This document shows positions 2,165 to 60,924 of a stretch of 64,000 bases of DNA, piece by piece (within the stretch, counting starts at the first letter, position 1; every line of letters begins with the position of its first letter). The notes beneath the pieces are model-generated. The model ran no database searches. It worked only from the letters and a program-made list of their open reading frames with translations, and was not told the origin of the DNA. The stretch is from Tricholoma matsutake (taxonomy: Eukaryota > Basidiomycota > Agaricomycetes > Agaricales > Tricholomataceae), in NCBI GenBank assembly GCA_026075535.2, contig AP026546.1:9300001-9364000 (forward strand), in the 5' to 3' direction. Made by a program: the position numbers and the translations under genes.

Positions 2165-2680
2165 GTGATCTGTAGGGCACGGCACAGGTAACCCTTGGGT
2201 ATATTTTCTTATACCCCTACCCGTACCCATGAACACTGTATCCACATGGGTAGGGGTATGGTGTTACCGTGAGTTTCTGTGGGTTAACCATGGTTATTCA
2301 CGTGTTTCAGCATGAATAGGTATTTTAATAATCTAATTACACTAAATTAATATACAGAAAGTGACCCCCCTCTCGCGTTTGGAGCAAGGGAGGGGGGTGG
2401 TGCCTGTAGTCGCCGAGAACAGAATGAGTAACCCCCCCACTCGCATTTGCAGTGAGAGAGGGGGGGGGTGCTGCCTGTAGTCATTGATCCCCATTTCCAC
2501 CCCATGAGCAGTTGCTCGTGGTGGCAGTTGGGTCCTCGGGTCCTCCTCCTGGTCATCATTGTCATTCCACCCACTATCCACCCCACGAGCAGTTGTGGGG
2601 TGGGTGGTGTGCCATCGTGACGTGGCAGCATTGGCATGGGGTCATTCCATGTGAGCTCCTTGTTCCAAGGGAATTCCAAC

Positions 2681-2781
2681 CTAGGAAATGAAAGAAACAA
2701 AATAGTTAGTTTACAAAAAAAGAAACGAATGAAAAAAAAACTTACCATGGGACCAAACAACACAATCACGTCATTTGGGCC
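2681..2781 (-). other. P1 palindrome plus predicted intron (C1, second module)
   Basis: A second, less perfect P1 palindrome at 2751-2781 is followed on the minus strand by GTAAGT (2745-2740), CTAAC, and a TTTCCTAG acceptor at 2681, giving a 65-nt predicted intron. It lies about 70 nt downstream of the first module's acceptor, so C1 has two palindrome-intron units in series. C3 repeats this two-unit layout. Confidence 0.7.
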
Positions 2782-2850
2782 TGGGTGACATGGCACTGTT
2801 GGGTGTGTGTTGTTAGCTGTCATCGTCCCTTGTTATCTGTAGCTTAGAAC

Positions 2851-2951
2851 CTGAAAAAGAAGAAACATAATCAGTTAGTTTACAAAAAACAAGAAATGAA
2901 ACACAAAAAAACTTACTATAGGCCCAAACGACGATTCGCGTCGTTTGGGCC
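2851..2951 (-). other. P1 palindrome plus predicted intron (C1, first module)
   Basis: The palindrome at 2921-2951 has arms GGCCCAAACGACG and CGTCGTTTGGGCC. Four bases downstream on the minus strand is a GTAAGT donor at 2916-2911. A CTAAC branch-like site lies at 2878-2874 and a TTTTTCAG acceptor closes the 66-nt predicted intron at 2851. This is the cleanest P1 example in the window. Confidence 0.75.
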
Positions 2952-3200
2952 ATGCTATGGTGGTGGTTGGATCATCCTATAGTTTAGAATTAGACGTGTC
3001 ATGAGTATTCAACAAGGTCAGATGATTACTCACCTGACCAAAATCTGGGTACTGGCATACCCGCACATACCCGTAACACCATGGAAAAGGGTACAGTGTT
3101 GCCTGGGTATGGCAATCCCATACCCATACCCATACCCATGCATACCCGTAACCGGAAACACACGGTGTTACCCGTACCCGTGCCGTGCCCTAGTGATCTG

Positions 3201-18654: not shown

Positions 18655-19482
18655 TAGTGTTTACAGGTCCAGTTCAGTCCGGTTTTTTATGTCTAAATGG
18701 GGCAACCGCAACCGCAACCGGTCCAAAACTGACCCAGATATTGCTGAACTGCAACTGTACCGCATAGGACCGGTCCATATCAGTCCATGGACCGAAAAAA
18801 ACCAGTTTGAACCGACTTTTTGCTGTAAAATTTGTTCTACCAATATAACCCATATACTTCTCGACAACTATTAATTGGACTATCTTACCATTACACAAGC
18901 AGTTGGATATTGTAATTTCCCGGTGACAGGTCCAACTTTTAAGAGATTTCATCAAGATCTGACAGAGATATGACCAAAACAAAAGTACATTGTATTCCAT
19001 GTTGTAGTTTGTAGTTTGTAGTTACAACTTGTTAGGGCTGTTAAATGAATCAAATACACATGGTATAGATGTTTATGTATGTTATTCCTTTGCCTTGGAT
19101 AATGTCCAATTGTGCCCAACATTTTTGTAGCACAAGGTATAAACAGTACAGTCACAGCTGCTCAAATGACATCAAAATACTCACATCAAAATGTATTTTG
19201 TCATATCTCTCTCAGTTCTCAACCGTTTTTGATGGTCCAGAGAGCGAAATTGAAGCCATTATGTGTGGAAATCAGGGAATATAGTGTACGTGACCTATAA
19301 ACTGGTTGAAACCGGTTCAGATTGGTTTTCATTGGTTCAATGATATTTGTCAAAGCAAAAGACTGGCAACTGGACTGCAAAAGACCGGTCCTATAAATAG
19401 CCACCTGATGAACCGGACTTTGGTTCAGTTCAGTCCGGTTTCGGTCTTTTTCCGGTTCGTAGGACCGGACCTTTAAACACTA
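18655..19482. mobile_element. D1: short non-autonomous hAT-type element
   Basis: Ends are TAGTGTTTACAGGTCC and GGACCTTTAAACACTA, with a perfect 8-bp duplication GCGATATC at 18647-18654 and 19483-19490. Subterminal regions consist of AACCGGTT, GGACCGG and CAACCG repeats. At 828 bp this is the shortest D member and it lacks the palindrome-intron cargo. It is inserted just downstream of the G1 pol region, inside that retroelement. Confidence 0.93.
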
Positions 19483-26300: not shown

Positions 26301-28088
26301 GTCAGTCATCCTGGATGCTGGAAGACCTTGGAGCTCACCTCATGGAATATTGGTGGCCACAAATGTCATGGCTCATTGGTCAGTATTGTTGTACTTGTGA
26401 CCTTTGCTTATGCACCAAGATTCCTCATCGCAAACCCATTGGTGAGCTACATCCTCTTCCTGTTCCAGAGAGTCATTGGGATGTTGTCAGTGTCGACTTT
26501 GTGGTGGAGTTGCGGTGATGTGCACAGTTGATTCAGTGGGAATATGCACTCCCTTCATTCCCACTCACACCACTGTCAGCGCCCTGGGTGCTGCCCAACT
26601 CTATCTCCACCATGTGTGGAAATTACATGGACTTCCTGGTGCTTTCCTCTCTGACCATGGCCCTCAGTTCATGGCAGAGTTCACTGACAAGCTGTACCAA
26701 CTTCTGGGGATCAAACTCCTTGCTTCAACTGCCTATCACCCACAAACTGATAGCCAGACTGAGCCAGTCAACCAGGAATGTCTGCATTTTCGTCAATGAG
26801 TGCCAGGACAATTGGGATGATCTTCTCCCCTTGGCTGAGTTTGGATACAACAACCATGTCCATGCTTCCACTCAACAGACCCCTTTCCTCTTGGACACTG
26901 GACAACATCTATGCATGGGATTTGAACCTTGCCAAATTCCCTCACACATTGAGATGGTGAATGAGTTCACAGAACACATGTGGGATAGCTTGGAGGAGGC
27001 AAAGGCAGCCTTAGCGAAGGCGAAGGATGACATGGCCCACTTTTACAACCACCACCATTCTCTGACCCCTCAATACAAGGTTGGTGATTGAGTTTATCCT
27101 GACTCCAGTGACATCTCCACTATGTGTCCATCCAAGAAACTTGCTCATCACTTCCTGGGACTTTTCCCTATTGTCAAGTGTGTTGGGAATGCATGCCTAT
27201 TGTTTACACCTCCCAGCCTCCATGTCCAGACTCCACCCAGTCTTCCATGTCATCAAACTCCTTCCAGCTCCCCCAGATCCATTCCTGGCACACCATTCAC
27301 ATCCACCACCACTGCCTACAGTGATCGAGGGAGAACCCCAGTATGAAGTCGAGTTGATCTTGGACAGTCAGTTGTGTCGAGGAAAACTCCAGTATTTGGT
27401 GCACTGGAAGGGTTATGGTTATGAGGAGAACTCATGGGTCAAAGATAGTGTTTAAGGGTCCGGTTCAGTCCAGTTTTTTGACCACAAGGGGGGTCAACTG
27501 TGGACCGGAACTGGTCCAAACTGACATCCAAAGTTGCAAGACTGCAACCGAACCCCAAAAGACTGGTTTGAACCAGTCTTCAGGCTGTTTTTACGAGTCT
27601 AACTAAACTATAATATATCATAGATAAAACTAATTATATTTACACCCTGCAAGCATTTGCTCACACCGGTGTTGCTAAAAGACTGAAAGAAAACAAAAAA
27701 GAACAAAATAATAGAAAAATAGCCCCACCGTCTCACGTTTGTAGCGACAGTGGGGGGTCAAGAGTGGTTGTTGTTTGTCGTCTCCTCCCCGTCACATGTT
27801 GCCACCTCCCCTGTTCTCGTTGTTGTCCATTTTGTGCTCCCTGTCATTAATCAGCCCCTACCTGTGTGCATTGTTGTTCATCATCGGCACCTCCATTACC
27901 CCCTACGAGCAGTGGCTCATAGGTGGGTTGGTGGTGCTCTGACATGGCATTGGCCATCGTCCCTGGCTGCCGTTGCTGTTGCTGTCTGGAAGTGGCAGTA
28001 CCCGTTGCCACCCTGTGAGCAGAGGCTTGCAGCAGTGACATAGGGCATGGGTGGTGTATGGTGAGGGCCCAGGTGTGTTGCATGGTGG

Positions 28089-28176
28089 CTAGGTGACGTC
28101 GTTAGTAAAAGAAATAAGATTAAACAAAAAAAAACATACTTAACAGCCCAAATGATGACTAGCATCATCTGGGCTG
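28089..28176 (-). other. P1 palindrome plus predicted intron (D2, second module)
   Basis: The palindrome at 28144-28176 (CAGCCCAAATGATG / CATCATCTGGGCTG) is followed by a GTATGT donor at 28139-28134, a long T run, TACTAAC, and a CACCTAG acceptor at 28089, giving 51 nt. The acceptor is the weakest part. Confidence 0.6.
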
Positions 28177-28372
28177 TCTGCAGCAGACCCCCCTGATTCA
28201 TTCTTGTCCCCCTGATTTGTCATCCTCATCGTCCCCGCTATTCATCATCAACAGTTGTCATCATCCAGGAAAGGGCCTGTTGCCACCCTGCGAGCAGAGG
28301 CTCACAGTGGCAGTGCTGGGCTTGTGTGCATCGTTTGGTGGGTGGGCAGCATTGTTATCAAAATGCAAAAAC

Positions 28373-28476
28373 CTAATAATGAAGAAAAACAAGTAGTTAG
28401 TAAAAGAAAGAAGAAGTGAGCTTTAAAAACATACCCTAGGGGGGCCCAAATGATGCTAGTTCATCATTTGGGCCCC
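28373..28476 (-). other. P1 palindrome plus predicted intron (D2, first module)
   Basis: The palindrome at 28441-28476 has arms GGGGCCCAAATGATG and CATCATTTGGGCCCC. On the minus strand a GTATGT donor lies at 28434-28429, CTAAC follows, and ATTATTAG ends a 62-nt predicted intron at 28373. The inner arm is AAATGATG/CATCATTT where C1 has AAACGACG/CGTCGTTT, so both arms changed together. Confidence 0.72.
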
Positions 28477-29126
28477 CTGCTTTGTGTTTGTTGGTTTGCA
28501 TGGTCATGGTTGCAGACCAGGGTGGTGACACAGTATTGTTGATGTTGTTGTTGTGGTCATGGGAAGTCTTCAGGCATATGGTGCCACTTTTGTTTTTGTG
28601 AGCAAAAACATGATCACATGGTCTGTGCGCAGCCACATGGTATAGAAGTACCCACCCAAACAACTCCTTTTATGCTCGCTTGTCCCACTCTATGTAAAAA
28701 TAACTGAAATAGTAATAGTAGTATTTATATTTTGGTCTTTTAGATATTTATTTCTGTATTTTGTGCTGAACTTATGCTATATATCTAGTAGTATAAACAT
28801 GGCTAAAAGACTGGTTAAGACTGGCTTCAACTGGTCTTACATCGGTTTTTGTGAGTTTATGAAAGTGATCAACCGACAACTGAACCAATCCCAATATAGG
28901 GTGAACCAAGACTGACAGTTCGGTCTCTTGTGGTTAAGTTCGGTTAAGAGTCCAGTCTTTTTCCGGTCTTATAGACTGGACCCTTGAACACTAGTCAAAG
29001 AGTCTGATGTGAATGCCCCTCGGTTAGTCAAGGAATTCCACCAACAGCACACTGCATTCAAATTACTGACTTTGGTCGTATGTGATTTTGAATGCATCGG
29101 GGCGATGAATCTTAGAGAGGGGGTGA

Positions 29127-32130: not shown

Positions 32131-32274
32131 TGGAGTAGGGTGTGTGGGCACCTACTCCAGTAGTCACCTGATCACCTAGCCAGTAGCCACCTGCATGTAC
32201 ATAGTCACGTCATGCTTAGGCTATCACTAGAGCATCCCACCACTCTGCTATAGGAGATGGATCCGCCATCTCCA
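32131..32274 (+). repeat. Right 144-bp LTR
   Basis: Direct repeat of 29793-29936, preceded by a purine-rich tract and followed by the target duplication GTAT. Confidence 0.88.
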
Positions 32275-32827
32275 GTATGGAGGTTGGTGGGTGCTTACTA
32301 GGCAGGTACCCCCCTTCTGGGGTCTCCTGGCATCCCTTTACACCCTCCTAGCCCATGTCAACAGCCTCACATCCCATTGACTGGGGAGGAGGGGATTGGG
32401 TGGGCATGGGCATGGATTGCATGTTTTTCATCATGGCAGGTCATCCCCAGTAGTATACAACATAAAAAGCAATAAAATACAATTTGTTGATTGATAAAAC
32501 AAAAAGCAAAAAAAGAAAAAAAAGAAAAACTTATCTATGGCCCAAACAACAGTTGCTGTCGTTTGGGCCCACGTTCTGTCCAGTCAGCTCGTTTGAAGGT
32601 GGTGGAGATGGTGGGAGTGGGCATGGTGGTGCTGGTGGTGGGTGTGCATGCAGTGGTGGTGGTAGAGTGGAGAGGAGGTGGTGGTGGTGTTGAAGATGGT
32701 GGTGGTCATGGTGGTTGTGAGCTGGCAGTCATGCAATGCATGCGGCTATGCATATTCTGGTTCATGGCTGGTTACTACGCACCTTGCTTTGGTAATAAAG
32801 GCATTAAATGTATGTCAAGGAATGATT
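32275..32827. repeat. Palindrome-cargo remnant
   Basis: Apart from the P1 palindrome at 32539-32569 and GTGGTGG-rich low-complexity sequence at 32595-32725, nothing is recognised. It is probably the continuation of the C/D-type sequence cut at 29788 by the short-LTR element. Confidence 0.45.
32539..32569 (-). other. P1 palindrome with decayed donor
   Basis: Arms GGCCCAAACAACAG and CTGTCGTTTGGGCC flank a short loop. The expected donor on the minus strand reads ATAAGT instead of GTAAGT, so splicing here is doubtful. A T-rich tract follows to about 32480. Confidence 0.6.
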
Positions 32828-33135
32828 ACTTGGTAGCTCAGCAGTTAAGTGCACTGTTATGTGTGAAGACCCAAGGTCAAGTGTTTAATTCTTGTTGGAT
32901 GTGAAACTTTTATTTGGGAAAGCACGTGCATTCCAGTTATTCCAGTTATTCCAGTTATTCTGGTTATTCTGGTTAGTCCAGTTAGTCTGGTTGTGATGAG
33001 TCTGGTCAGATTCCAGGGATTCCAGGTGTAAATTTGATGCTTATTCTGACTGGAATCATGCTGCATAGGGAGAACTACATACAAAAACAATTCCACTGGA
33101 TTCCAGAAATTCCAGAAATTCTGGCTGGAATAACC
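32828..33135 (+). repeat. tRNA-like SINE candidate, copy b
   Basis: An A-box-like sequence TAGCTCAGCAGT lies at 32834-32845 and a B-box-like GTTTAATTC at 32883-32891, 38 bases apart, the arrangement of an internal RNA polymerase III promoter. A body and a tail of irregular TTCCAGTTATTCC repeats follow (32926-33135). It interrupts a P1 palindrome at 33135. A second candidate with the same order lies inverted at 61050-61322. Confidence 0.5.
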
Positions 33136-33462
33136 ATTGTTTGGGCCCCCAAAGTAAGTCTCCAAACCTTTTTTGACTTTCACTAACCATCCTTTTCTAG
33201 GTTTCTTATTTTTTGCTATCGACATCACCCAACCCCTGGTCCATGCCTCACACTGCTGCTGTGAGCTTCTGCTCGCAGGGTGGCAATGGGTTCTGTTCTT
33301 ACATGGCAACAGTGATGGCCAACAACATGACACCCTCAACAGCAACCTCTGCCACTGCCATGTCACATAGCACCACCTACCTGCCTAAGAGCCACTGCTC
33401 ATAAGGGAATTGGAGGTGCTGATCATGATGGTAGCCATGAACAGGGGCCAACAAACAGCCAG
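33136..33462 (+). repeat. Palindrome-cargo fragment with a predicted intron
   Basis: The right half of a P1 palindrome (TTTGGGCC, about 33141) is followed by a plus-strand intron-like sequence 33154-33200: GTAAGT, CACTAACC, TTTTCTAG, 47 nt. P2 palindromes follow (about 33254-33287 and 33388-33411). The left half of P1 is displaced by the SINE candidate and the right side is cut by the solo LTR. Confidence 0.6.
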
Positions 33463-35248: not shown

Positions 35249-36185
35249 GTGTTTTTCATCAAGCTCGTTGGTCCCTGTATCTATCCAGATTTGACTTCTC
35301 TTGCACCACCATCTGGGTTGCAGCATGGGGAAGACCGATGCCCTCTCCCAATGTGCAGACCATGGGAATGGCAGCCATGACAATCAAAACATTGTGTTGC
35401 AGCCAGACCTGTTCACCATCCAGGCATTGGAAGGCATCACACCCCAGGGTGAGGATTGGGACATCCTATGCAACATTCATCATGCAAACCTAGTATTCAA
35501 AGGTCCAGTTCAGTTTGGTTGCTCCCGAAAAACTGGTTTCGACTGGTTTTACTACCATTTTTTACTGTCTAATTAAATTATATTGTATACTTAATAAAAC
35601 TAATTACATCACCCTGTGAGCAGGTGCTCACAGTGGTGGGATGCTGCTAATAGAAAGAAAAAAAGAAAAAAAAGACCAAATAACAAAAGAAAGAGAAAAA
35701 AAGAAAAGAAACACCCCATGGTCTTGCATTTGTAGTGAGAGTGGGGTGTCGTACGTTGTTCCCTGGTACTCATTGTTGTTGGCCTCATCGTTCGTTGTAT
35801 CCCCCATTCACCTTGTCCTCACATTGTCATTTGTCATCCCCACATTGTTGTTAGTCGTCCCCACACTGTCATTAGTCGTCCCCACACTGTCATTTGTCAT
35901 TGTCCCCATGTTGTCGTTTGTTGTCATTCCCATGTTGTCATTTATCGTCCCCTCCCTCCCTGTCATTTATCGCCACCCTCCCCATTTTTGTCATTGTCTT
36001 GTCGGCCTGTCCCTCATCATCAGCACCTCCATTGCCCCCTATGAGCAGTGGCTCACAGGCGGGGTGGTGGTGCTGTGTGACGTGGCACCAGTTGTGGTCC
36101 AGGAATGGGACCCATTGCCACCCTGTGAGCAGAGATGCTTGCAGTGGCTGTGTGGGGCAATGTAGGGGTGTTGTTGTTGTCAAGC

Positions 36186-36279
36186 CTGAGGAAGAAATCA
36201 AGATGGTTAGTAAAAAAAAAAAAATCAGTGATAACAAACATACCTGCAGCCCAAACGATGCTAGTCGTTGTTTGGGTGC
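36186..36279 (-). other. P1 palindrome plus predicted intron (D3, second module)
   Basis: The palindrome lies at 36249-36279 (GCCCAAACGATG / CGTTGTTTGGGTGC). On the minus strand GTATGT at 36243-36238, TACTAACC and TTCCTCAG at 36186 define a 58-nt predicted intron. Confidence 0.7.
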
Positions 36280-36301
36280 TTTGTGTTTGTTCATCTGTGG
36301 G

Positions 36302-37094
36302 ATGAATCTATAGGGGGTTTGCTTAAGCAACCTAAGATGTAGGTGCACAGCTTGCTTAAGTATAAGTCAGCTTAAGCACATATTGCCTGTAATATTGTAT
36401 GCACAGAAACAATAATTGAACACCCTGAGCTCATGTCCTGTCTCAACCATGCTGCTAAAGCACCCTCCCTGCTCAAGCACCCTCCCCACTCAAGCATCCT
36501 CCTGCTCAAGCACTATCCCCACTCCCTGCTCAAGCACCCACCTTGCTCAAGCATGCTCTCTGCTCAAACATGCTCTCTGCTCAAGCAAGCTCCCCACTCA
36601 AGCAGACCCACCAAGCTTGAGCACCCTTCCTGCTCAAGCACCTCCAATCTCAAAACAGGGATAGGACTACTTAATGTGCTTAAGCACTGAGCACTCAATA
36701 AGCATCTTAAGCAGTCCATGAGCCAGCTTATAAACAAGCACAGCTTAAGCACCCAATTAAGGTGCCAAACAAATAACAATAATATAAATATGTCTCTACT
36801 GACACTTCCACCCTTTGGAAACCATATATTTTGGCCTCAAATTGCTTCATTCTATATTATGTGGACTTCTCTGGTGCAGGCAGTAGCAGCATAACCAGTG
36901 TTTAATGATGAACTTTGAACTTTGAACACCTGACTAAATTGATGAACTAAATTGATGACTAAGTCTGAGTTTGATTCAAAGTTCATGTGGATTAAGCATT
37001 GTTCAAAGGGCTTAATGAGCTTAAGGAGATATGGTGCTTAAGCAAGCCATGCATCTACATCTAAGGTTACTTAAGCAAATGCCCTATGGTGCTT
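36302..37094. mobile_element. MULE-like non-autonomous element, copy 2
   Basis: This is an inverted, near-identical copy of the element at 22494-23284, with the same GCTTAAGYAACC ends and the same internal run of CTGCTCAAGCA units (about 36460-36640). The expected 9-bp duplication is not clear. It sits inside the cargo of D3. Confidence 0.75.
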
Positions 37095-37165
37095 GGGTGG
37101 TGGCAGTGTCATTCCCATTGGTGTCATTCATGTTGCGTCATTAAGAAAAGAACAGAGAACAGAAT

Positions 37166-37250
37166 CTAAAAGAAAGTAAAAAACAATTAGTAGAAGTGAT
37201 CAATAAAAAAAACATACTCTGCCCAAATGACAGACTGGCATCATTTGGGC
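37166..37250 (-). other. P1 palindrome plus predicted intron (D3, first module)
   Basis: The palindrome at 37221-37250 (GCCCAAATGA / TCATTTGGGC) precedes a GTATGT donor at 37217-37212, a TACTAAT branch-like site and a TTTCTTTTAG acceptor at 37166, giving 52 nt. Confidence 0.68.
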
Positions 37251-37425
37251 TGCCTGCATTGTGTTTGTTTGTTTGCGTGGTCATTGGTGTGGACAGAGTG
37301 GTGACATGGCCGTTGTTGATGTTGTTGTTGTGGTCATGGGAAGTTGTCAGGCAACAGGCAAGTGGTGCCACTTTTGTTTTTTGGGAGCACAAGCGTGACC
37401 ACATGGTCCGTGCACTGCCACAGGG

Positions 37426-37433
37426 TATATAAA
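37426..37433 (-). promoter_or_regulatory. TATA-like box of the D3 cargo
   Basis: The box lies in a block, conserved with D4 and D5, that reads on the minus strand TATATACCCTGTGGCAGTGC. It is about 175 nt upstream of the first P1 palindrome and in the same orientation as the predicted introns. Confidence 0.45.
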
Positions 37434-39904
37434 CACCCACCAAATGTCTACTTCCATCGTAGACTTGTTCCACTCTGTTAACAATTAGTTATAATTAGTA
37501 TTATATTAGTATTATATTAGTTCTTTTTATCTATATTTATGTAGCTCTAACTGTATATACAGTACATATTATATAAGTGAGAAGACCGGTCACAAACTGA
37601 TTGTGACCAGTCTGTGATTGGTTTTTGAATATTTTCAATGTGAGGCAACCTGCAACTGGACCGACTCCCAAATGAGGCAACTGCAACCGATGGTCTGGTT
37701 GCCTTCGGTTGGGTTGGGTTCGGTTTCGGTCTTTTTTCTGGTTTATGCAACTGGACCTTCAAACGCTATGCAAATCATAGTGGTTTACATGAGGATGTTG
37801 TTGCCCAAGCTGTTAAAGAACTGAGGAAGGGATCCACCCTTTCCTTGCATGCAGCAGAGTGGGCTGAAAAGGGACCTGTTGTATTTCAGGGATCACATCT
37901 ATGTCCCCAATGACCCAGACCTTTGCTGGTGCATCATATCCCAACACCATGACTCACAGATTGCCAGTCATCCTGGATGCTGGAAGACCTTGGAGCTCAC
38001 CTCACAGAATTATTGGTGGTTACAAATGTCATGGCTCATTGGTCAGTATTGTTGTACTTGTGACCTTTGCTTATGCACCAAGATTCCTCGTCGCAAACCC
38101 ATTGGCGAGCTACACCCTCTTCCTGTTCCAGAGAGTCATTGGGATGTTGTCAGTGCTGGCTTTGTGGTGGAGTTGCCAGAGTCAAATGGGTTTGATATGA
38201 TGATGTGCACAGTTGATTCAGTGGGAAAATGCACTCACTTCATTCCCACTCACACCACTGTCAGCGCCCTGGGTGCTGCCCAACTCTATCTCCACCATGT
38301 GTGGAAGTTACATGGACTTCCTGGCACATTCCTTTCTGATCATGGCCCACAGTTCATGGCAGAGTTCACTCACAAGCTGTACCAACTTCTGGGGATCAAA
38401 CTCCTTGCTTCAACCACCTATCACCCACAAACTGATGGCCAGACTGAGCGAGTCAACCAGGAACTGGAGCAGTACATCCACTTCTTCGTCAATGAGCACC
38501 AGGACAATTGGGATTCCTCCCCTTGGCCAAGTTTGGATACAACAACCACATCCATGCTTCCACTAGGGACTACCATGGATGGCCATCATCCGGATGACCA
38601 TCCGTGGATATGATATATGGATGGATATGGATATGGATATTGCATGGGTGATATCCATGGATGAATGGATGGTTACTATTAAATTTAAATAAATGAGTAA
38701 TATAGTCTTGGTAAGGAATAACATGAGTACGGGTATGGTAAAATCCGTGGTGTTCAGGTCATGGGTTCTGCATGGTTACTATGGTATTAGAATTGCTGAC
38801 CCATTGATTACTGAGACCCTTCACACAGTGTGATGGTGGTCAACACAACCGTTGCCACACCACTGATGATTGATATTGCCACTAGGGATCTGCACGCAAC
38901 CACCACCAGCACCTGACCTTCCCACAATACGAGCCTATGAATAGTGAGGCATCCTGTGTCTGCCTCACTATTCCTAGACTTGATTGCATCAAAACCCTAC
39001 CACCAGTTCTCATGCCAATCACCACCCGATCACTGTCTCCCACAGTTGATCAACATGTGCCACAGCCTCAGCTAGTGTTGTGCTCATCATCTCCTCATGC
39101 TATTCCACTCATTCCTGGCCCTTTTTCCTTCGCTTTTTTTTGGTAGGTTTACAAGTCCTTAACAGAGTTGAGACTCATTCTTCAAAACTGGAATCAATGA
39201 AAAATTCAGTGTGACCATTTTTCCATGTCTGTTTTCCCCATGGTTAGTAATTTCAGCAACCATTAAGGTAGAGGAAATCCATATGCATCCAGTGTCACCT
39301 GATTTGGCGTGATGAACGTGACAAAAGTGCAAAAATTTGCATATCAAAGAAAGCACATAAATTTCAAGCAATCTGCCACCACCAAAATTTTTTATTTCCA
39401 CTTCATGATTTTTTGGTGGTTGTACATTTTTGAGACATCAGCATGAATTACGAATCCTTAACGAAGTTAAGACTCGTTCTTAGAACCTGGAACTGCCAAA
39501 AAATTCAGTGTGACCATTTTTCCATGTCTGTTTTCCCCACGGTCAGTAAGTTCTGAGCAACCCAAAAATTACTGACTTTACTAACCGTGGGACTCAAAAA
39601 TTAGCCGAGACACGGATTTCGAGTATAAAAGGAAATTTCTCATCTGGCTATCTAAGTTACCGGAACCTATAGTAATTGACTTTAATACAATCCATTACAA
39701 ACTGTTATTGATAGTTTCATTACAAACTATTATTGATCAGTTACAAACTTTGTACTGAAATTTTGAAATTTGATGATACTTCGGGGGTGCCCTAAAGTTA
39801 TCATGTGCGTTGACTTCTCTCCCCCCCGAGAGATGTCGATATTGGGCGCATGCGACCGCTTTAGGGTATGCTTTTTGTAGCACATCTACAATGAAATTCT
39901 TGTA

Positions 39905-43233: not shown

Positions 43234-44098
43234 GACCATGATGAGAGAGGCCCACATCACAGAGGATGGCCCAAACAATGGCTGTCATCGTTTGGGCCAA
43301 TAGTTAAGTTTTCTACTTGATACATTTTTGTTAACTAACTAATACTATGGATTTGTTTTTTAGGTTCTAAACGACACTCCCAGCCCTCCCATGCCCTCAA
43401 CCCAACACCCGATGGCCGCAACAAAGGGAATGCCAATGCCAATGGCCGCTACCAATGCCACCAATGCCAATGCCAATGCCACCAACGACAATGCCGCCAC
43501 TGCCACCACAAACTGCAACTGCACACATCAATGACAGACACCAACAACAATGATGCCAACAACAAATACCAAACAAACAACAAATACCAAATGCCAACAC
43601 CAATGACATGGCACGCCACTGCCACGTCACCACCAGCTAATGATGCGGCACATCACCACCCATGACACTGCTGAACGATGCCCACAGCAATGGCAGGTGG
43701 TGATGACAGACAATGACGAGGCTGGATGGCAAACTCAACAACCCTGAACAGGTTTTTTTCTCTCATTTTGTGCTAACAGGCTGCTCCTCCCTTCCTTCGC
43801 ATCCTGTGAGGTAGAGTTTTTTTGTTTGTTTATGATCCACATGTCTGCTCACAGGCATCTGCCTGCGAGGGGCATTATCTTAGTATAGAATAGTAGTATT
43901 ATTATGTATATAAAGTCAGTTTAGACCAACGTGAGTCAGTTGATGACCAGTTGTCAGACTTGGACTGGACTGCACCGAACCAGTTTCCTGTGGTCCAGTC
44001 CAGTTTTACATACATTTTGAATGTAGTCGAACTGGTCTCGGTCCTGGTTCACTCCAAAAATGGAAAAAAATCGGACCTAACTGGACTTTAAAACACTA
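43234..44098 (+). mobile_element. D6a: partial D element
   Basis: The right end TTAGGTCCGATTTTT... read inversely, finishing GGACTTTAAAACACTA at 44098, identifies family D. Plus-strand cargo begins with a P1 palindrome and intron (43268-43363). The middle has a low-complexity run of CCAATGCC repeats (43420-43500). The left terminal repeat is missing where A2 adjoins. Confidence 0.65.
43268..43363 (+). other. P1 palindrome plus predicted intron (D6a)
   Basis: The palindrome at 43268-43298 (GGCCCAAACAATG / CATCGTTTGGGCC) is followed by GTTAAG at 43303, CTAACTAAT, and a TTTTTTAG acceptor ending at 43363, a 61-nt predicted intron. The donor is off consensus by one base. Confidence 0.65.
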
Positions 44099-48613: not shown

Positions 48614-51430
48614 TCCGCAACCCTCAGGATACAGCCATTGGGGCTGGGGGTTGCATTGACCTTACCCACTTGGCTGCCTACATTTGTCTCAACGTGTCCG
48701 CTCTTTCCGACCCTGACTCCCTAACCATTCTTTTAACCTTTCCCGACTCTTCCGCCCCTTTCTGAACCCTTATCAATTCTGGCTCCTCCCACTGCTTCCT
48801 TGACTCCTCTTTTGTGTTGAATAACCAACTCAGCACGGAATCCATTAACCCGATTGGTTTACAACTCTTTGATGGAACTTGCAACTCCACCATAACTCAG
48901 ATCGTCAAACTTCTGGTCACCTTCCCTGCTGGTGAAGTATTCAATTTGTCATTTTATGTAACCTCGCTCGACTCTTCCTGTTCCACTGTACTCGGTCATA
49001 ACTGGCTGAAGCAATACAATCCATTGATTGACTGGTCTTCAAGCCAACTTGCTTTCCACTCTGCAGATCATAGAGTTCCAGCACCCCTGATGTCACCTTT
49101 GTCCCCGAATCTTCCAGTAGAAATCCTCGACTCTTCCGCACTTTCCGAACCCCCCATTGCTCCTGAGTTTACACCTCCTGACATCTCCTTCATCAATGCT
49201 GCCGCTTATGCGCATGCTAGCAAACTTCCTGGGGCAATAGCTTTTCAGATGACCTTCGCTCCAGAAGGGTTATCCACCCGCTCTGCCCATTCCACTAACT
49301 CCTCCAACCTCTCCGATATTCTGCCCGAGTATCATGAATTTGCTGATGTCTTTAATAAGATTAAAGCGGATACCCTTCCTCCACATCGGTATTACGACCT
49401 CAAGATAGAGACAGAAGATAATACTCCTCCGCCTCCGGGCCAAATGTATTCTCTCTCCCCCTCTGAATTAGAAGCCTTACAAGTCTTTATTGATGAAAAT
49501 GTCCGCTCAGGCTTCATCTGCCCATCCAAGTCTCCACATGGCGCTCCAATTCTCTTCATCAAGAAGAAGGACAGTAGTCTCCAACTTTGTGTCGACTACC
49601 GAGGACTTAACCATCTTACAAAGAAAGACCGCTACCCACTTCCTCTCATTTCCAACCTACTTGACTCTCCCCGCAAAGCCTGCTTATTCACCAAAATAGA
49701 CTTCCAGCACGCTTATCACCTAGTCCACATCGCTGATGGTGATGAGTGGAAAACTACTTTCTGCACCCACTATGGATCCTTCGAGTGGTTGATGGTCCCC
49801 TTTGGGCTCACTAATGCACCCGCAGCTTTCCAGCGGTTTATGAATGACATCTTCAGCGACATGCTGGATGTTTGTGTCATCATATACCTCAACGACATCC
49901 TAATCTATTCCGATGACAAGTCCCAGCATGGGGCTCACGTCAAAGAAGTCCTCTGCCATCTCCGGAAAAATGGACTTTACGCCTCTCCACAGAAATGTGA
50001 GTTCCACAAAGACACTGTCGAATATTTGGGTTTCATCCTTTCACCAGATGGACTGTGGATGTCCGAGGATAAAGTCAAAACCGTGCTTGACTGGCCTGAG
50101 CCTAGGAAAGTTAAGGATATTCAATCCTTCTTAGGCTTTTGCAACTTTTACCACAGCTTCATTAACAGCTATTCAGACATTGTCATCCCACTCACCTGCT
50201 TGACATGGAAATCTGCACCATGGGACTTCAACAAGAAGTGCTGTGACGCTTTTGAAAAGCTCAAACAAGAATTCACCCACACCCCCATCTTAACGCAATG
50301 GGTACCTGACTCACAGATGGTACTCAAAACCGATGCTTCTGACTATGCCCTAGCAGCTATCCTTTCGGTTTACACTGCGGATGGAGAAATCCATCCGGTA
50401 GCTTTTCATTCCCGCCCCTTCAATCCAACTAAATTACGACACACATGATAAGGAACTCTTGGCCATTTTCGAAGCCTTCAAACACTGGCAGCAGTACTTC
50501 GAGGGTTCCGCAAACCCGGTTGATGTGGTCACAGACCACAAAAATCTTGAGTACTTCAGCACTACTAGTGTTTTAAGGTCCAGTTTGGTCCGGTTTTTCG
50601 ACCCCAAGAGGGGCAACCGGTTGCAACTGGTGCCCAACTTAGGGCAACTGCAACCGAACCGACTAGGACCAGTCCTAGTCAGTTCAGTTGCCCTCGAAAA
50701 ACCGGTTGCCACCAGTTTTTCCAGCAATTTTCAATACATATTTTAATTTTACTATATATTAAATACAACTAATTACAACACACCCTGCGAGCAGGTGCTC
50801 GCAGCGGTGGGGTGTTGCTAATAGAAAGAAAGAAAAAAAAAGAGTGAACAACACCTGTAAGGTGTGTCTGTCACAATGAAAGAAAGAAAAGAAAAAGAAA
50901 AAAGAACCCACAGACTCGCGTTTGCAGTGAGAGCGGGGCGTCGTATGTTGTCCCGGGTATTCATTATGGTCAGCCCCATCGTTCGTTGTCCCTGCATTGT
51001 CATTTGTCATCCTTGTGTTGTTGTCTGTCATCCCCATGTTGTTGTCCCCGTGCTGGCGTTTGTCGTCTCCTCCCTGTTGCCACCCTCCCATTTTTGCTGT
51101 TGTTGTTGTCTTCTCCCTGTCATCCTCCCTGTTCGCGTTCTTGTTTGTTGTCCCCCCATGGTCGTCAGCACCTCCATCTACCCCTGTGAGCAGTGGCTCA
51201 CAGGCGGGCTGGTGGTGCTGTGACGTGGCAGCATGGTGGCATGGTGGTGCTGTGATGTGGCAGCACGGCAGCATGTTGGTGCCACATTGTTGTGTCATTG
51301 TCGTCATCCAGAAACAGGACCTGTTGCCACCCTGCGAGCAGAGGCTCGCAGCGGTGATGTAGGGCATGGGTACGGTGAGGGCCCAGGTGCGTTGCATCAT
51401 GTCTAGGCGATGTCGTTTGCAAAAGAGACA

Positions 51431-51518
51431 CTACAAAAAGAATTATTAGTAATTGAAATAAGATTAAACAAAAAAATCATACCTGATGGCCCAAATGATG
51501 CTGGTCATCGTTTGGGCC
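51431..51518 (-). other. P1 palindrome plus predicted intron (D4)
   Basis: The palindrome at 51488-51518 (GGCCCAAATGATG / CATCGTTTGGGCC) is followed on the minus strand by a GTATGA donor at 51482-51477, TTACTAAT and a TTTTTGTAG acceptor at 51431, a 52-nt predicted intron. Confidence 0.7.
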
Positions 51519-51705
51519 ATCTGCTTTGCATTCGTTCGTTGGCAGTGGTTTTGGGGCAGGTGGTGTGCATGTGTTGATGGTGGTGGTGGACGGATGGGAT
51601 GGGAGTTGTGGGAGTTGTTTGTTGTCATGGGAGTCATCTGGCAATGGTGCCACTTTTCTTTTTTTCAGGAGCACATGACCACATGGTCTGTGCACGGCCA
51701 CAGGG

Positions 51706-51713
51706 TATATAAG
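51706..51713 (-). promoter_or_regulatory. TATA-like box of the D4 cargo
   Basis: It lies about 190 nt upstream of P1 on the minus strand, in a block shared with D3 and D5 (TATATACCCTGTGGC, then CAGACCATGTGGTCA). Conservation of this block in otherwise diverged elements supports a promoter role. Confidence 0.45.
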
Positions 51714-53876
51714 TACCCGCCAAATAACTACCCCGACTTGTCCCACTGCGTGTAATTGTAGTGTAATGTAGTGTAACCATATGATAAATAGTTATGATTA
51801 GTACTTATGTTAGTTATAATTTCTTACTTCTAAGCAGGTACATAGTACATTGTATATACTGCGAGAAAACTGGTTGCAACCGATTGCAACCGGTTTTGTA
51901 ATGGTTTTTAAATGTTTTCAAAACAAGGCAACTGGCAACCGGACTGAGCTCAAAAGTAAGCAACTGCAACCGAGAAATGGACCAGACCGTGTGTTGGTTC
52001 GGTTCAGTCTTTGGTCTTTTCCCGGTCCTATGGACTGGACCTTTAAACACTAAGCACTACCAAGTTGCTCACCCGCCGCCAGGCCTGTTGGTCTGAGTAC
52101 CTTTCCCAATTCAATCTCGTCATCTGCTTCCGCCCCAGAAAACTAGGGGCCAAGCCAGATGCGCTCACTAGACGTTGGGATGTCTACCGTAAAGGGGGAA
52201 ATAGCGACTTCGCCTCCGTAAACCCAACCAACTTCCAACCTGTATTCACACAGGAACAACTCACCTCTTCCCTCCGCACCACCTATTTCGCCACACCCAT
52301 TCTTCGACAAGCAGTAATCATGGATGTTGAGAAACTTCACCACGACATCTGCACCTCCCTACCCCTTGACCCCTTTTCATCCGCACATCTTCTGACACCT
52401 ACCAACCCCAACTGGACCATAGACGAGGCAGGTCTTCTCCACCATTTCGACCAGATTTATGTTCTGGATGTAGCAGATCTTCGCCTCAAGGTCCTTCAGT
52501 ACAAACATGATCACATCCTCTCTGGCCACTTCGGACAAAACAAAACCCAGCAGCTTGTCCACTGGGAATATGTCTGGCCAAACCTCTGCACCTTTGTGCA
52601 GGAATTCTGCAAATCCTGTACCACTTGCAAACAATCCAAATCACCTTGACACAAGCCCTACGGGTTCCTAAAGCAACTTCCGGTTCTGGAATGACCTTGG
52701 AACTCCATCTCCATGGACTTCATTGAACAACTACCCAACTCCGACGGTCACACCGCTATCCTGGTCATTGTTGACCGCCTCACCAAGCAAGGCATCTTCA
52801 TCCCAACTGTCAATGAAATTACAGCCCAAGAACTAGCCAACCTGTTCGTCCTCCACATCTTCTCCAAGCATGGCATCCCATCACATGTCACTTGCGACCG
52901 GGGATCCAAGTTTGTCTCCCATTTCTTCCACTCCCTCGGAAAAGCGCTCAACATGCGGATCCACTTCACTTCCGGTTATCACCCGCAAGGTGATGGTCCG
53001 ACAGAACGACTAAATCAGACCTTGGAGCAGTACCTCCAGATCTTCTGCAACTATCAGCAGGACAATTGGTCTCACCTCTTGCCCTTGGGTAAATTTGCCT
53101 ACAACAATGCTCCTTCCACCTCTACAGGCATATCCCCCTTCTTTGCCAACAAAGGCTATCACCCAAACATTTCCATCTTTCCAGAATGCGACTTAGCTTC
53201 ACAGCGTGCCCACGAGTTTGTCGTTGACTTAGACAACCTTCATCAGGAGCTTCGGAAACAGCTTGCGGCCGCTCAAGAGCGTTATCAAGGCCCTGCGGAC
53301 AAACATCGGGCACCTGCACCTGACTTCAACATTGGTGACTCTGCCTATGTCACTGCAGAAAATATCCGCACCACTTGTCCTTCCAAGAAACTTTCCGAAA
53401 GCACCATGGCCCCTTCGAAATCATTGCCCGCCCAGGCACTCACTCAGTCACCCTGCAGCTCCCGGATCACATGCGGGCCATTCACCCTGTTTTCCATGTC
53501 TCTCAACTTGAGAAACACTCCCCAAACACAATTCCAAATCGAGTACAACCTCCACCTCCTCCGATCACCATCGACGACGAGCTCGAATATGAGATCGCCG
53601 AAGTCCTCGACTCCAAAGTCGACAACCGACGTCGCTGCAAGATTCTCTACCTCGTCTGATGGGAAGGTTACCAGGGAACTGATGAAGAGACCTCCTGGCT
53701 ACCTGTTACGGAACTTGACCATGCCCAAGAACTCCTTGCAGATTTTCACACCTGCTACCCGCAGAAACCCGGACCATTACCTGCTTAAAGACTATTCACG
53801 TTACTTATTCACTCGGTCTGAACTCAGAAACAAATTTTATTGAAAAAAGATTTTGTCTTTGGATCCGACCGGATCC

Positions 53877-55693: not shown

Positions 55694-57097
55694 CATCCCA
55701 GTTGTCCAAATTTGGCAGTAAGCCTTCTCATGTCAACTATTTTTAGCTAATCTTATCAATCAGTTATGCTAATTGAGCTGCCTGGTTTATCAGCCCATAT
55801 GGACAAAATTTGAATGGTCCAGAGGTGGCCTGGGCAAACCAAAATACCATGGTCATCAAACCTTGCCTCCATAGATGGCTACAAAGCTGAAAAAAAGAGC
55901 ACAAAAAGAAGTATGGCACACCAGCCCAGTAATGGATAGCTTTTTATAATATTTTCAGCCCGAATTCTCAGCCAAAACTTTTTCAATTTTTCAAAGCCCA
56001 TATTTTGCCACTCTTGGCACTTACATAAGTGTATTACATAAGGTAGCCAGTTCCTGGTGGTCCCTACCTTATGTTGTTTAATTCTCACATAAATGCAGAT
56101 CCGAATTGTGGTCCACAATCAGAGATAATGGTATCAGGTTAATCCACATAACCACCATACCTGATTTAGGTAGAGGCATGCCAAGCCCAATGATGAGGTT
56201 TCTGCAGTGGTAGGAATAATATGGACCTCCTTTGTAAAGTGGTCACATACTATGAATATTGCATTGTACCCTTGAGCTTTGGGTAGTCCAGTGATAAAAT
56301 CTACAGATATATCTCACCATGGTGCTTTTGGTATGGGGTTCGGCATTAATTTCCCTGCAGGTTTCTCTGGAAATTTCTTCCCCCTCATGCACGTATCACA
56401 TCCATCCACATACCCCAACACATATTTAGAAATTCCGGGCCACCAATAATTTCACATTACTAATTCCAATGTTTTCCATCTTCCTGGGTGTCCAGCAGTT
56501 GGTGTATTGTGATGTAACTGGACAATTAAGGAGTGACACAGGTAACCCTCAGGTATAATTTCCCATACCCATACCCGTGCCCATGAACACTGCTCCCATA
56601 TGGATATGGGTGTGGTGTTTATCGTGGGTTTGCTCGGGTTACCCAGGGGTGGTCCCATGTCTGTTGGCACCCACTATCCACCCTGCGAGCAGTGGCTCGC
56701 AGCAGTGGTGATGGGTGCTGGGTTGCTGCTCATTCATCATCATTGTAGTCCCTCATCATCTGCACCACAAACCACCCTATGAGCAGCTGCTCATAGGTGT
56801 GTCATTTGTGGCTGCCTTGTCCTCCTCATCCCCCCCTTGCCACCCTCATCTGCCCTCGTTCCCCTCATTGTTTCATCCACCCTCATCATATCACCTCCCC
56901 CTCATCATCTCATCTCCACCTCGTCCCTCCTCATCCCCTACTCATCCCCCAACCCTCCCCTATCGTCATTGGCCCCATTCCACCCAGGATCCGCCCCACA
57001 AGCAGTGGCTCGTGAGGCTGGGGGCGGGTGATCTGTTGTCTGTTGTCTGGCACCATTTGGGTGGGCATTGTCTCTGTTATAGCCTATAGTTTAAGAC

Positions 57098-57200
57098 CTA
57101 GTAGATAAAAGAAAGAGATTAGTTACTTTATATAATCAAAATCAAATGAAAAGAAAAACTTACCTAGGGCCCAAACGACATGGATTGCATCATTTGGGCC
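57098..57200 (-). other. P1 palindrome plus predicted intron (C3, second module)
   Basis: The palindrome at 57168-57200 (GGCCCAAATGATGC / GTCGTTTGGGCC) precedes a GTAAGT donor at 57163-57158, GTAACTAATC and an ATCTACTAG acceptor at 57098, giving 66 nt. Confidence 0.7.
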
Positions 57201-57240
57201 AGTCCATCCATCCATCTGTCATTACCCAGTAGATTAGGAC

Positions 57241-57345
57241 CTGAAAAACAAAAGAAAGAGTAGTAAGTTTATAAAAACAAGAAACAAATGAAACAAAAAA
57301 CTTACCACAGCCCAGGCCCCAAACGACGATTCTGTTGTTTGGGCC
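57241..57345 (-). other. P1 palindrome plus predicted intron (C3, first module)
   Basis: The palindrome at 57315-57345 (GGCCCCAAACGACG / TTGTTTGGGCC) is followed after about nine bases by GTAAGT at 57305-57300, and GTTTTTCAG ends the 65-nt predicted intron at 57241. No clear CTAAC lies in this copy. Confidence 0.62.
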
Positions 57346-60300
57346 TCATTGTCGACACCAGAGAAGCTGGCAGAGACCTCCGTCTCGCTTTTGAGGCGAG
57401 GGAGGGGCATTGGATGGGCCGAGTACATCATTGTAGACAAAAGAGTAACCTAATTAACAGACTCACATGACTGGAATCCTGGTACCAGCATACCTGTAAC
57501 ACTGTGGAAAAGGGTACAGTGTTGCGCAGGTACGGCAATTTGGAACCATACCCATGACCAGATTACCCATACCCATGTCACACCCCATGGACAATCTCCC
57601 TTTGCAAATCCTGATCCTTCAGTACATACACCTTCCCTTGGAGTTAAACAACCTGTGCTCCTCAGCCCATTCATCTCCTTTTATATTACCCTTCTTCTCT
57701 CTCTTCAGAGCTTTCATGGCTTCCACTACTTCATCATCCATCTCCAAACATTGTCTAATTTTAGACAACATTTCTGTTTCTGAGCTATCTATTAATATAT
57801 GCCCGTGATGCATAGCACAAATGCAGAAGTATTCAGGTTTGAGTAAGGTAACATTTGTATTGTCCGCCTCCACCCCCCTTTTGTGATCAATATGTCTGGA
57901 TAATGCATCTGCTTTCCTCATTAAGCTTCCTGCTTTGTGGACTAAGTGAAAATTAAAATGTTACAGGAATAGTGCCCAATCTGCTTGCCAGCAGTTAAGC
58001 TTTTTGGCTGACATGAAGCATTGCAGATTTTGATGATCCGTCCAGATTTCAATCTAATGGATACATCCCTCCAAATAATATCTCCACCTCCAATGCTCGT
58101 ATTATTCCCAACATCTCTTTGTCATGCACATCATAATTCCTCTCCACATCATTCAGCCCTCAGGACAAATATGTGCAAGGATGCCATTTGTCATCTTTGC
58201 ACAGCATTGATAATACCACTCCAGTAGCAAAGTCAGATGCATCTGATTCCACTCATAAGGGGCGCATGAAATCTACTGGGGCTAATATTGGTCCCTCCAC
58301 AAACTTCTTCTTCAACTCCTCAAGCACTGTCTGCTGCTGCTCCCCCTACCTCCACACTACTCCCTTTCATGCAAGGTTATGTAAGGGTGCAGCAATTTTG
58401 GAAAAATTATGCACAAAGCGACGATAATAATTTGCGAGTCCCAAGAAGGCTTGAACCTCCTTAAGGCGGGTGGGCACAGGCCAGTCAGTGATCACCTGTA
58501 CCTTGATTGGGTCCATCTTAATTCTGTCAGGGCTGATCAATAATCCTAGGAACTTGATCTCACTTGCACCGAATACACACTTCTCTGGTTTCAAAAATAG
58601 ATCGTTCTCTGATAATCTATGTAACACCTCCTGCACTATTGCCTCATGATTTTCTTCATTTTCCGTAGATATCAGAATGTTGTCAATAAATATTATTACC
58701 ATGCCTTTGTCAATTACATCCTTGAAAATGTTGCTCATCATATTTTGGAAAGTTGGGGTACTATTGGTCATCCTGAAAAACATGACAAGCAATTTGAAGG
58801 ATCCTCGCCATGTGTCAAATGCAGCCTTCCACTCATCTGCTTTCCTAATCCATACATTATTGTATCCCCATCATAGATCCAATTTTGTGAAGACTTTGGT
58901 TTTTCCCACTTTGTCAATTATTTCTGAGATCAAGGGTAGGGGGTACACATTCTTTACTGTCCACTCATTCAGATACCTATGAGCTGTACACATCCTCTTT
59001 CTCTGATCTTTCTTTGGCAAGAAGAATATTGGTGACATCTGTGGGGATTTTGGAGGTCATATGTATCCCTTGCATAATTGCTTGTTTATGAATACATCAA
59101 CTTCTTCTTGTTCCTTTGGAGATAACGGATACACCTTTGACTTCTTTGGCACAAACCCTGGCTTCATCTTGATCCCATGATCCCATGGCTTCTGCACTGG
59201 GATTTGCTCAGACTCCTTCTTCTGAAAGACTGACAGATATTTGTGATATTCTTTTGGTACCCACTCCTCCACTGGCTGCTCCACCTTCACTACATTCCTA
59301 TCTCATGACTGTCCTCCATGAATTGCTCTAAATGGTTGCTTCTGCTCTTCTTTCTCAATCATGATCAGAACTTCCTCATTTGGCATATCCTCATCCTCCA
59401 CTTCCTCCATCATAACAGAATACTTTCTTGGATGGTCTTCTCCTTCTTTTCTTTCTTCTGCTTTTTCACTTTTTTCACATACACATTACATTCCTTAGGA
59501 CAATGAGTCATTTGTACTTTCCCAGTCTTCCAATCATTTTTGGGATTATGCTTGTGTAATCAGACATCCTATTATTAGATTGGTTTTCCTGAGATCGCAC
59601 ACTTTGAATATGGCTCGTTCCTGATGCCCTTGATACTGTAGTACCATAGTCACCTCCTACTTAATAGTTCCTCCACAATTTATCATTCCATCATTATACA
59701 CCATTATTAGTTGTGATAGCTTGCACATGCTAATACTGTTTCCAGTAATTAAGGACTGATTAATAAATAATCCTGTAGAACTGCTATTGAGCAACACTTC
59801 CACATCAATTGCTGCATGCATGTCCACTGTCTTCAATCCCACAGTCAAGGTGATTTCAGGTTCTATTTGTGCAGAGCAAATAAAGAATTTAGGGTTTTTC
59901 AGAAATAGTGTTTGGCAATTTTCTTTGTCACGTGATTGGAGTCGGTTGTCCTCAGCATTGATTTCCTTTTCTGGTTTTCCCTGGTTTTTCTCAGATACTA
60001 ATACATTGTAACAATTAGAATGGGGAAACCTTCACCAGGACTCTTCCACAAAATTCTGCTGCCTGCCCTCCTCCTACTTCACTTCCTCAATTGTAGCTTC
60101 CCTGATCTTTCTCTTCTGCCTGCAATTCCTAGAAATCTGCCCATAGTTAAAACATTTAAGTGAGGATCGTCTCCCCACTTGATCAACATCCATAGCATCT
60201 GGTGCTGCTGACTCCACAACAATAGGTGTCACTGCCATGGCTGGTGGCTGTGCCCTCAGAGTTTGTGCCTGAGGCACCTTTCCTTTCTCAGACTTTCCCC

Positions 60301-60663
60301 CTGATGGCTTTCCAAATTTACTACTTCTAGTGTTTAAAGGTCCAGTTGCATGAACCAGGAAAAAAGACTGAAACCAAACCAAACACAACTGAAGGCACCC
60401 GGACCTTCGGTTGTGGTTGCTCAGTTTGGGAGCTGGTTGGGTTTCCAGTTGCCTCATTTTGAAAATATTTAAAAACTGATCAAAGACCAGTTGCAATCAG
60501 TTGCAACTGGTCTTTTTGCTGTATATAAATGTATCCTACATACAAGTTAAAGCTACATAGATACAGATAAAAAGAACTAATATAGGTACTAAATATAAGT
60601 AATTATGAATGAAATGGGGCAGGAGGGGACAGGTGTATGATAAAAGTACTTGTTTGGTAGGTG

Positions 60664-60671: not shown

Positions 60672-60832
60672 CCCTGTGGCAGTGCACAGACCATGTGGTC
60701 ACATTTGTGCTCCAAAAAACAAAAGTGGCACCATTTCCTGATGACTTCCCATGACCACCCACAACATCAACAACACTGCATCACCACCTGTCTGCACCAA
60801 CAACGATGCAACCAATGAACACAATGCAGGCA

Positions 60833-60924
60833 ACCCAAATGATGCCAGTCCATTGTTTGGGCAGGGTACATTTCTTTTATGGATTTATTATTACTTCTAC
60901 TAAATGTTTTTTTCTTTCTTGTAG
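60833..60924 (+). other. P1 palindrome plus predicted intron (D5)
   Basis: A weakened palindrome at 60833-60862 (AACCCAAATGATG / CCATTGTTTGGGC) precedes GTACAT at 60866, TTCTACTAAAT and TTTCTTGTAG ending at 60924, a 59-nt predicted intron followed by GTTCTA as in C1 and D6a. Confidence 0.65.

Follow-up and report, generated by a model that had tools for sequence, protein, structure and literature searches.

In a stretch of 64,000 nucleotides of the Tricholoma matsutake genome (chromosome C9, positions 9300001-9364000; hereafter the window) we found repeated copies of a cassette in which a palindrome is followed, on one flank and at a short distance, by a donor-like site and an intron-like stretch. 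The anatomy of this cassette is beyond doubt. A scan for both palindrome arms with up to 4 mismatches in total, applied to the window and to further loci of the genome (L numbers), returned 12 palindromes in the window. These were the 11 main places of a preliminary description, at all of which the palindrome and the intron-like stretch lay at the bases it had named, and one more at 32539-32569. Nine of the 12 palindromes sit in five fully bounded elements (D, B1, B2, B3 and F) spanning 1.0-2.3 kb, while those at 32539, 43268 and 60832 lie in fragments or in elements with one end not placed. The features are given below in window coordinates, starting with the element that holds the copy originally flagged; hairpin 1 is the palindrome of the cassette.

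50566..52052, minus strand: element B3, with terminal inverted repeats starting TAGTGTTT and target duplication AGCACTAC on both sides; carries hairpin 1, an intron-like stretch and hairpins 2 and 3
51698..51718, minus strand: TATA-like stretch of B3, a candidate promoter, alike by eye in B1 and B2
51488..51518, minus strand: hairpin 1 of B3, the copy originally flagged, GGCCCAAAYGAY...RTCRTTTGGGCC, with 0 arm mismatches
51431..51482, minus strand: putative intron of B3, 52 nt, with GTATGA (donor-like), TTACTAAT (branch-like) and TTTTTGTAG (acceptor-like)
51327..51354, minus strand: hairpin 2 of B3
51181..51208, minus strand: second hairpin 2 of B3
50907..50940, minus strand: hairpin 3 of B3
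50781..50809, minus strand: last hairpin 2-like structure of B3
2173..3192, minus strand: element D, with terminal inverted repeats starting TAGGGCACGGCAC and target duplication GTGATCTG on both sides
2921..2951, minus strand: hairpin 1 in D; intron-like stretch 2851-2916 with donor GTAAGT
2750..2781, minus strand: another hairpin 1 in D; intron-like stretch 2681-2745
2497..2521, minus strand: hairpin 2 of D
2364..2470, minus strand: two type 3 hairpins in D (2431-2470 and 2364-2399)
27446..28993, minus strand: element B1, with target duplication GTCAAAGA on both sides
28443..28474, minus strand: hairpin 1 in B1; intron-like stretch 28373-28434
28145..28175, minus strand: another hairpin 1 in B1; intron-like stretch 28089-28139
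35491..37768, minus strand: element B2, with target duplications TGCAAACC and TGCAAATC (7/8 alike)
37220..37251, minus strand: hairpin 1 in B2; intron-like stretch 37166-37217
36248..36278, minus strand: another hairpin 1 in B2; intron-like stretch 36186-36243
56527..57587, minus strand: element F, with ends akin to D and target duplication TGGACAAT on both sides
57316..57345, minus strand: hairpin 1 in F; intron-like stretch 57241-57305
57168..57200, minus strand: another hairpin 1 in F; intron-like stretch 57098-57163
43268..43298, plus strand: hairpin 1 in an element whose ends were not placed; intron-like stretch 43303-43363
60832..60863, plus strand: hairpin 1 (4 mismatches); the B-type element around it begins at 60328 and its other end was not found; intron-like stretch 60866-60924
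32539..32569, minus strand: hairpin 1 in a C-type fragment (about 32274-33135), with ATAAGT where the donor is expected
33136..33147, plus strand: donor-side arm alone, with GTAAGT at 33154, in a B-like fragment beside the C-type fragment

Three weaker places had been proposed as well, and these fared less evenly. The copy at 32539 has the full palindrome and ATAAGT at the donor position. Near 33154 a good donor and the donor-side arm are present and the other arm is absent; the sequence ahead of this arm reads as a subterminal part of another element. The place near 8955 holds an intron-like stretch whose best arms have 4 mismatches each, and it was rejected as a copy of the cassette for want of a palindrome. 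The surrounding region (8600-9500) looks like an element with type 2 hairpins and no hairpin 1.

Searching the whole assembly (13 chromosomes, 161,040,721 bases) for the strict palindrome gave 1780 places, and a reversed-pattern control gave 0. Single arms with up to 2 mismatches were also enriched in the window (28 matches, 6.85 expected). Among 17 evenly placed 10-kb samples (L019-L035, 170 kb) 6 were positive, with 11 palindromes between them. Extrapolated to the genome this gives an estimate on the order of ten thousand palindromes with up to 4 mismatches, with a wide error because the copies cluster. In a 257-Gb prokaryote collection the strict palindrome matched 3 unrelated loci, none of which had GTAWGT within 14 nt as judged by eye, and IMG/VR gave 0 matches.

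Elements carrying the cassette

Non-autonomous, hAT-like elements with terminal inverted repeats and 8-bp target duplications carry the cassette in their interior. Among six window elements the duplications agreed at 8/8 positions in five and at 7/8 in B2; elsewhere they agreed at 8/8 in L005, L011 and L017, at 5/5 visible letters in L009 and at 7/8 in L003 and L050. B3 and F each interrupt an LTR retroelement, and relatives of these retroelements run through without the insertion in L020 (for B3) and in L016 and L024 (for F). The overlap between the two retroelement halves is 8 bp against L020 and against L016, and 4 bp in the alignment with L024. Judged from these alignments, the uninterrupted relatives are independent evidence of empty sites.

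The ends of the elements are unlike each other and are of at least three kinds (A/C, B and D/F). A-type elements (L005, L009, L011, L017) have the repeat ends CAGTACTTTACAGTCCCCCACC and GAGGTCTTTACACTCCCCCACC flanked by 8-bp duplications, and the end of C-type elements is similar; those of B1, B2 and B3 resemble TAGTGTTT, D ends in TAGGGCACGGCAC and the ends of F are akin to D. Terminal inverted repeats of hAT elements begin with YARNG. The B end TAGTG and the D end TAGGG fit this consensus, the A ends CAGTA and GAGGT and the C end GAGTA do not, and of the two F ends TAAGG fits and TGGGG does not. The length of the duplication, and for B and D also the ends, would thus fit a non-autonomous hAT type, with membership tentative.

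Exact B-type ends had 1706 matches genome-wide and one exact D-type end had 29. At least 151 hAT-domain matches were found in the genome (150 of 449 candidates scored), and among the matches listed, none of the four in the first 8 Mb of chromosome C1 had an exact B-type end within 5 kb. No transposase frame was seen in the cassette-bearing elements and no autonomous partner for them was found. One autonomous candidate, a pair of B ends in L050 at a distance of 3.83 kb, turned out to consist of two distinct elements. In the window, a match to the hAT dimerisation domain PF05699 (11478-11642, plus strand) looks like a decayed transposase; its ends look like TARGGCYCRGC and no hairpin 1 was seen inside. 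Several other repeats were observed alongside these elements. Short B-type elements of about 0.8 kb have the same ends without the hairpin cargo (window 18655-19482, L017 6736-7565, L050 20-833). A 0.8-kb repeat with a 17-bp tandem array is present twice in the window (36302-37096 and 22491-23284, 95% alike), one copy being nested in B2. In L013 (674-1500) a TAGTGTT-type element with the 8-bp duplication GGCCCAAA is inserted in the 5' arm of a hairpin 1.

Donor, intron and further hairpins

For a closer description we collected 58 copies of the cassette from the window and non-redundant loci. Donors were scored as the 9-mer starting at most 14 nt from the palindrome on each flank, with G or A allowed as first base, and whichever flank scored higher counted as the donor side, a choice that raises the chance level at most twofold. 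On this flank the score was 9/9 in 36 copies, 8 in 16 and 7 in 6, so that 8 or more was reached in 52/58 copies, compared with about 1% of random places. The preliminary description had the palindrome and donor in a fixed arrangement, and this is borne out: a donor-like site lies on one flank in 58/58 copies, and the opposite flank reaches a score of 7 in 2 and of 8 or more in none. With respect to the predicted direction of donor use, the palindrome is on the exon side and at most 10 nt upstream of the donor-like site in every copy (58/58). The distance between the two, given before as 3-12 nt, had to be corrected to 2-10 nt and is exactly 4 nt in 43/58 copies. Nine of the copies had been fetched by the strict palindrome only, with their donors unseen; all nine have a donor-like site at 2-5 nt, in 7 of them at 4 nt, and their flanks are of several quite different kinds.

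Downstream of the donor a branch-like CTRAY follows at 28-80 nt in 50/58 copies. A branch together with YAG is present in 49/58, and in 36 of those 49 the next letters are GTT. By these signals the stretch after the donor has the look of a spliceosomal intron, some 50-75 nt long. A loose intron regular expression discriminated weakly, with 74 matches compared with 52 in the reversed sequence, and only the named cases were used. Introns of the same kind without the palindrome were seen in L018 (at 4718), L031 (at 5961) and the window (8955), and those in L018 and L031 are compatible with deletion between GGGCC repeats.

The first two bases of the donor are GT in 38 copies, AT in 18 and something else in 2. 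In family A the AT donor form CTACATAAGT occurs beside CTACGTAAGT, apparently through a CpG-type change. Among C-type copies, eight (window 32539, L004 30, L010, L015, L016 364, L018 4284 and 4436, L040) have ATAAGT after an ATAG- or ATGG-like spacer, and L041, with a C-like downstream exon, instead carries GTAAGT. The C-type line seems to have spread while lacking a canonical donor at the ATAAGT position, possibly as an AT-AG type of intron or after a fixed loss.

In the direction of the intron, the cargo of B and D elements reads by eye as one end, an exon, hairpin 1 with its intron (at least once), hairpin 2, hairpin 3 and the other end. B elements alone add a TATA-like stretch before the exon and a minisatellite between hairpins 2 and 3. 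Hairpin 2 resembles CTGYGAGCNNNTGCTCRCAGGGTGG, and hairpin 3 resembles CTCTCACTRCAAAYGCGAG in a C/G-rich frame. Within 1200 nt, hairpin 2 lay downstream of hairpin 1 in 142/159 pattern pairs; 47 of those are matches on opposite strands, since a hairpin that is nearly perfect fits the pattern on either strand. For type 3, the pattern matched near hairpin 1 only in L032, and its order elsewhere comes from reading by eye. Hairpin 2 with a GGGTGG tail had 1211 matches genome-wide. Nine element-bearing loci (1.2-3.0 kb) contained 2-7 GC-rich hairpins each, where 0-0.3 were expected from a Markov model (3 shuffles).

ARAGORN found 0 tRNA genes in 10 loci and the window. Letters like tRNA A- and B-boxes were noticed by eye in L017 (2629-4723, near both ends) and L010 (1600-2100), close to the termini of A and C elements; ARAGORN called no tRNA in these two stretches and Rfam gave none in L010. 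Rfam returned 0 matches at gathering score in the window and four sub-threshold matches in seven loci. A stretch of L015 (590-770) matches three miRNA precursor models, all below the cut-off.

Conservation between copies and possible functions

When 56 of the 58 copies were grouped by their upstream exon (two with short flanks being left out), 22 clusters were obtained. Between cluster representatives, the 20 nt upstream of the palindrome were identical at chance level (0.28; shuffled 0.27). Donor identity between the clusters was 0.79 compared with 0.34 in shuffled sequence, the first value being somewhat inflated by the best-match donor scan, and spacer identity was 0.39 compared with 0.26. 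The loops reached 0.41 compared with 0.25, a value which is not independent, as some clusters are sister groups of family A. Past the donor the intron showed 0.59 compared with 0.57, reflecting its T-richness. Identities of 0.86 and 0.89 in the arms are ascertained, the arms having been the search key. Just inside the searched arms the first pair is standard or G.U in 36/46 distinct loops, the second in 20/39 and the third in 4/14. A tie between the hairpin and a 5' splice site signal, as cargo of mobile elements, is supported because the pair persists while the upstream exon drifts to chance identity. That hairpin and donor stayed together while the surrounding DNA changed hints at a spliced and folded RNA made by the elements.

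The explanation that we rank first, at somewhat less than even confidence, is that the palindrome forms an exonic hairpin whose task would be to present, or to regulate, the neighbouring splice site in a spliced non-coding RNA encoded by the element. It is placed first because the preferred 4-nt donor spacing and the constant order make most sense in RNA. The cassette, which is the first part of the non-coding cargo, runs from the putative exonic hairpin of 12-14 bp over about 4 nt to a 5' splice site signal, with which an intron-like stretch some 50-75 nt long begins. A spacing of 4 nt keeps the exon bases for U1 pairing outside the stem. The element would be transcribed, in B elements perhaps from the TATA-like stretch upstream, and the hairpin would fold in the nascent RNA with these bases left single-stranded, where it might present the adjacent 5' splice site or regulate it via a bound protein. 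The product would be a spliced chain of hairpins, and the elements themselves would move as DNA through a transposase supplied elsewhere.

Folding predictions form the stem with a mean pairing of 0.89. The predicted openness of the donor was 0.483 compared with 0.417 when the palindrome letters were shuffled (40/58 copies; p = 4e-5), a small rise that any self-folding insert might produce. If selection acted on an RNA stem in the present copies, G.U should outnumber A.C among arm mismatches on the intron strand. No excess was found (40 G.U and 34 A.C, p = 0.56; 32 and 30 in an earlier set of 47), and most arm changes probably arose after insertion and would be neutral. Spliced-junction copies would be genomic proof of splicing, which a DNA element need not leave. 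We found 0 genome-wide (up to 1 mismatch) and 0 in the loci (up to 2 mismatches) with a pattern that covers only the 4-nt spacer with the GTTNTANNCTAC exon start, B-type junctions falling outside it. We count against an exonic RNA hairpin the AT donors, the spread of the C-type line, the palindrome-less introns, the null mismatch bias and the lack of a junction copy of the kind sought, as well as the weak second and third inner pairs and the small size of the rise in openness.

The cassette might alternatively be a relic. A single exon-intron junction in an ancestral element gene would have been spread by transposition and exchange between families and would now be functionless. CpG-type decay, which is frequent in the arms and donors, would fit this, as would the recurrence of AT donors in a line that spread and the absence of Pfam domains from the single cargo frame that was scanned. 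Spacing and donor nevertheless persist between clusters whose upstream exons are at chance identity, and we consider a relic plausible in outline and on balance unlikely. It is quite unlikely, in our judgement, that the palindrome acts as DNA, either as a two-half-site binding site for a transposase, host protein or transcription factor, or as a recombination site that breeds arrays, with the donor a mere neighbour. Both arms do conserve letters beyond what pairing needs while the loops vary (the arms again being ascertained), arm mismatches are strand-symmetric, and cassette units are often arrayed at a spacing of 119-171 nt. A DNA site would, however, need neither a one-sided donor nor its distance of 4 nt (43/58 copies), and the palindrome is internal rather than subterminal.

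A source of double-stranded RNA, or a decoy for the silencing machinery, appears improbable. Element-bearing loci are rich in hairpins and the palindrome is present in thousands of copies (1780 by the strict pattern), but a stem of 12-14 bp is short as a Dicer substrate and the window is without an Rfam family at gathering score. Very little speaks for a protein-coding exon left from a degraded gene for a transposase or for cargo, in which the palindrome would simply reflect the encoded protein. Some frames in exon 1 do stay open as far as the donor (by eye, in B3 and L017), whereas palindromes of 30, 31, 32, 33 and 36 nt represent all three remainders of 3 and break any frame, and a single start-to-stop frame of at least 180 aa (50759-51400, with no Pfam domain) exists in the five bounded window elements. 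We rejected this explanation on the palindrome lengths and the scarcity of long frames. Just as remote is an introner-like mobile intron jumping on its own. Intron and hairpin do form one repeated unit that is sometimes arrayed, yet the unit bounded by target duplications is the entire element of 1.0-2.3 kb, the intron-like stretches are internal to it with neither splice site at an element end or in a target duplication, and introners are introns of host genes as described in the part of PMC9860276 cited here. On this anatomy the introner was rejected.

Should the cassette indeed work in RNA, its copies, estimated to be on the order of ten thousand, would form a natural experiment on what a hairpin placed in the exon at a fixed distance does to a 5' splice site. 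DNA elements would then be maintaining a spliced non-coding RNA. A wider version, which we hold to be doubtful, is that one gene for a structured and spliced non-coding RNA is the common cargo of element families whose ends are unrelated, recognisable by a hairpin 4 nt ahead of each 5' splice site. The hairpin would be an RNA device that controls this splice site and that evolved in or was captured by transposons, and the RNA would serve the elements, for example against silencing or for expression. If the cassette is a relic, it would still cleanly mark some of the unclassified repeats, whose share of the matsutake genome is 25.4% according to the section of PMC10211490 consulted.

Comparison with known systems

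The literature searched on element cargo combining a hairpin with a donor yielded no element with such a plan, in agreement with the preliminary description, whose author knew of no such cargo. In their terminal inverted repeats, 8-bp target duplications and lack of a transposase frame the cassette-bearing elements are like non-autonomous, MITE-like hAT elements, and hAT dimerisation domains exist elsewhere in the genome. They differ from these in adding a cargo of several hairpins and spliceosomal intron signals, common to elements with unlike ends. Helitrons have no terminal inverted repeats and no target duplications, and carry a short GC-rich hairpin near the 3' terminus followed by CTRR. 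Some matsutake copies resemble such an end in having a GC-rich hairpin followed by CTRR-like letters (CTAG, CTAA, CTGG), but here the hairpin is internal, the spacing is other and the elements have terminal inverted repeats and 8-bp duplications, on which grounds a Helitron end was rejected.

Introners are repeated elements, some with terminal inverted repeats and target duplications, that carry spliceosomal splice signals, and in the cited part of PMC9860276 the element is itself the intron, whereas the matsutake introns are internal to the element. Stwintrons, repeated in fungal genomes, have short near-terminal inverted repeats able to pair as an RNA stem close to splice sites (as described in the passages of PMC12403724 used here). 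Their repeats lie inside the intron and, according to these passages, join its two ends, whereas the matsutake stem lies wholly in the upstream exon. The closest working analogue, by analogy of position and going by the portion of PMC7776569 cited, is the exonic silencer upstream of IVS3 in the P element of Drosophila, a transposon with 8-bp duplications in which an exon site upstream of a 5' splice site controls U1 binding. That site, in the transposase gene, is a pair of pseudo-5' splice sites to which PSI and hrp48 bind. The matsutake palindrome lies in non-coding cargo and is arrayed, and is thus alike in place and unlike in sequence or gene.
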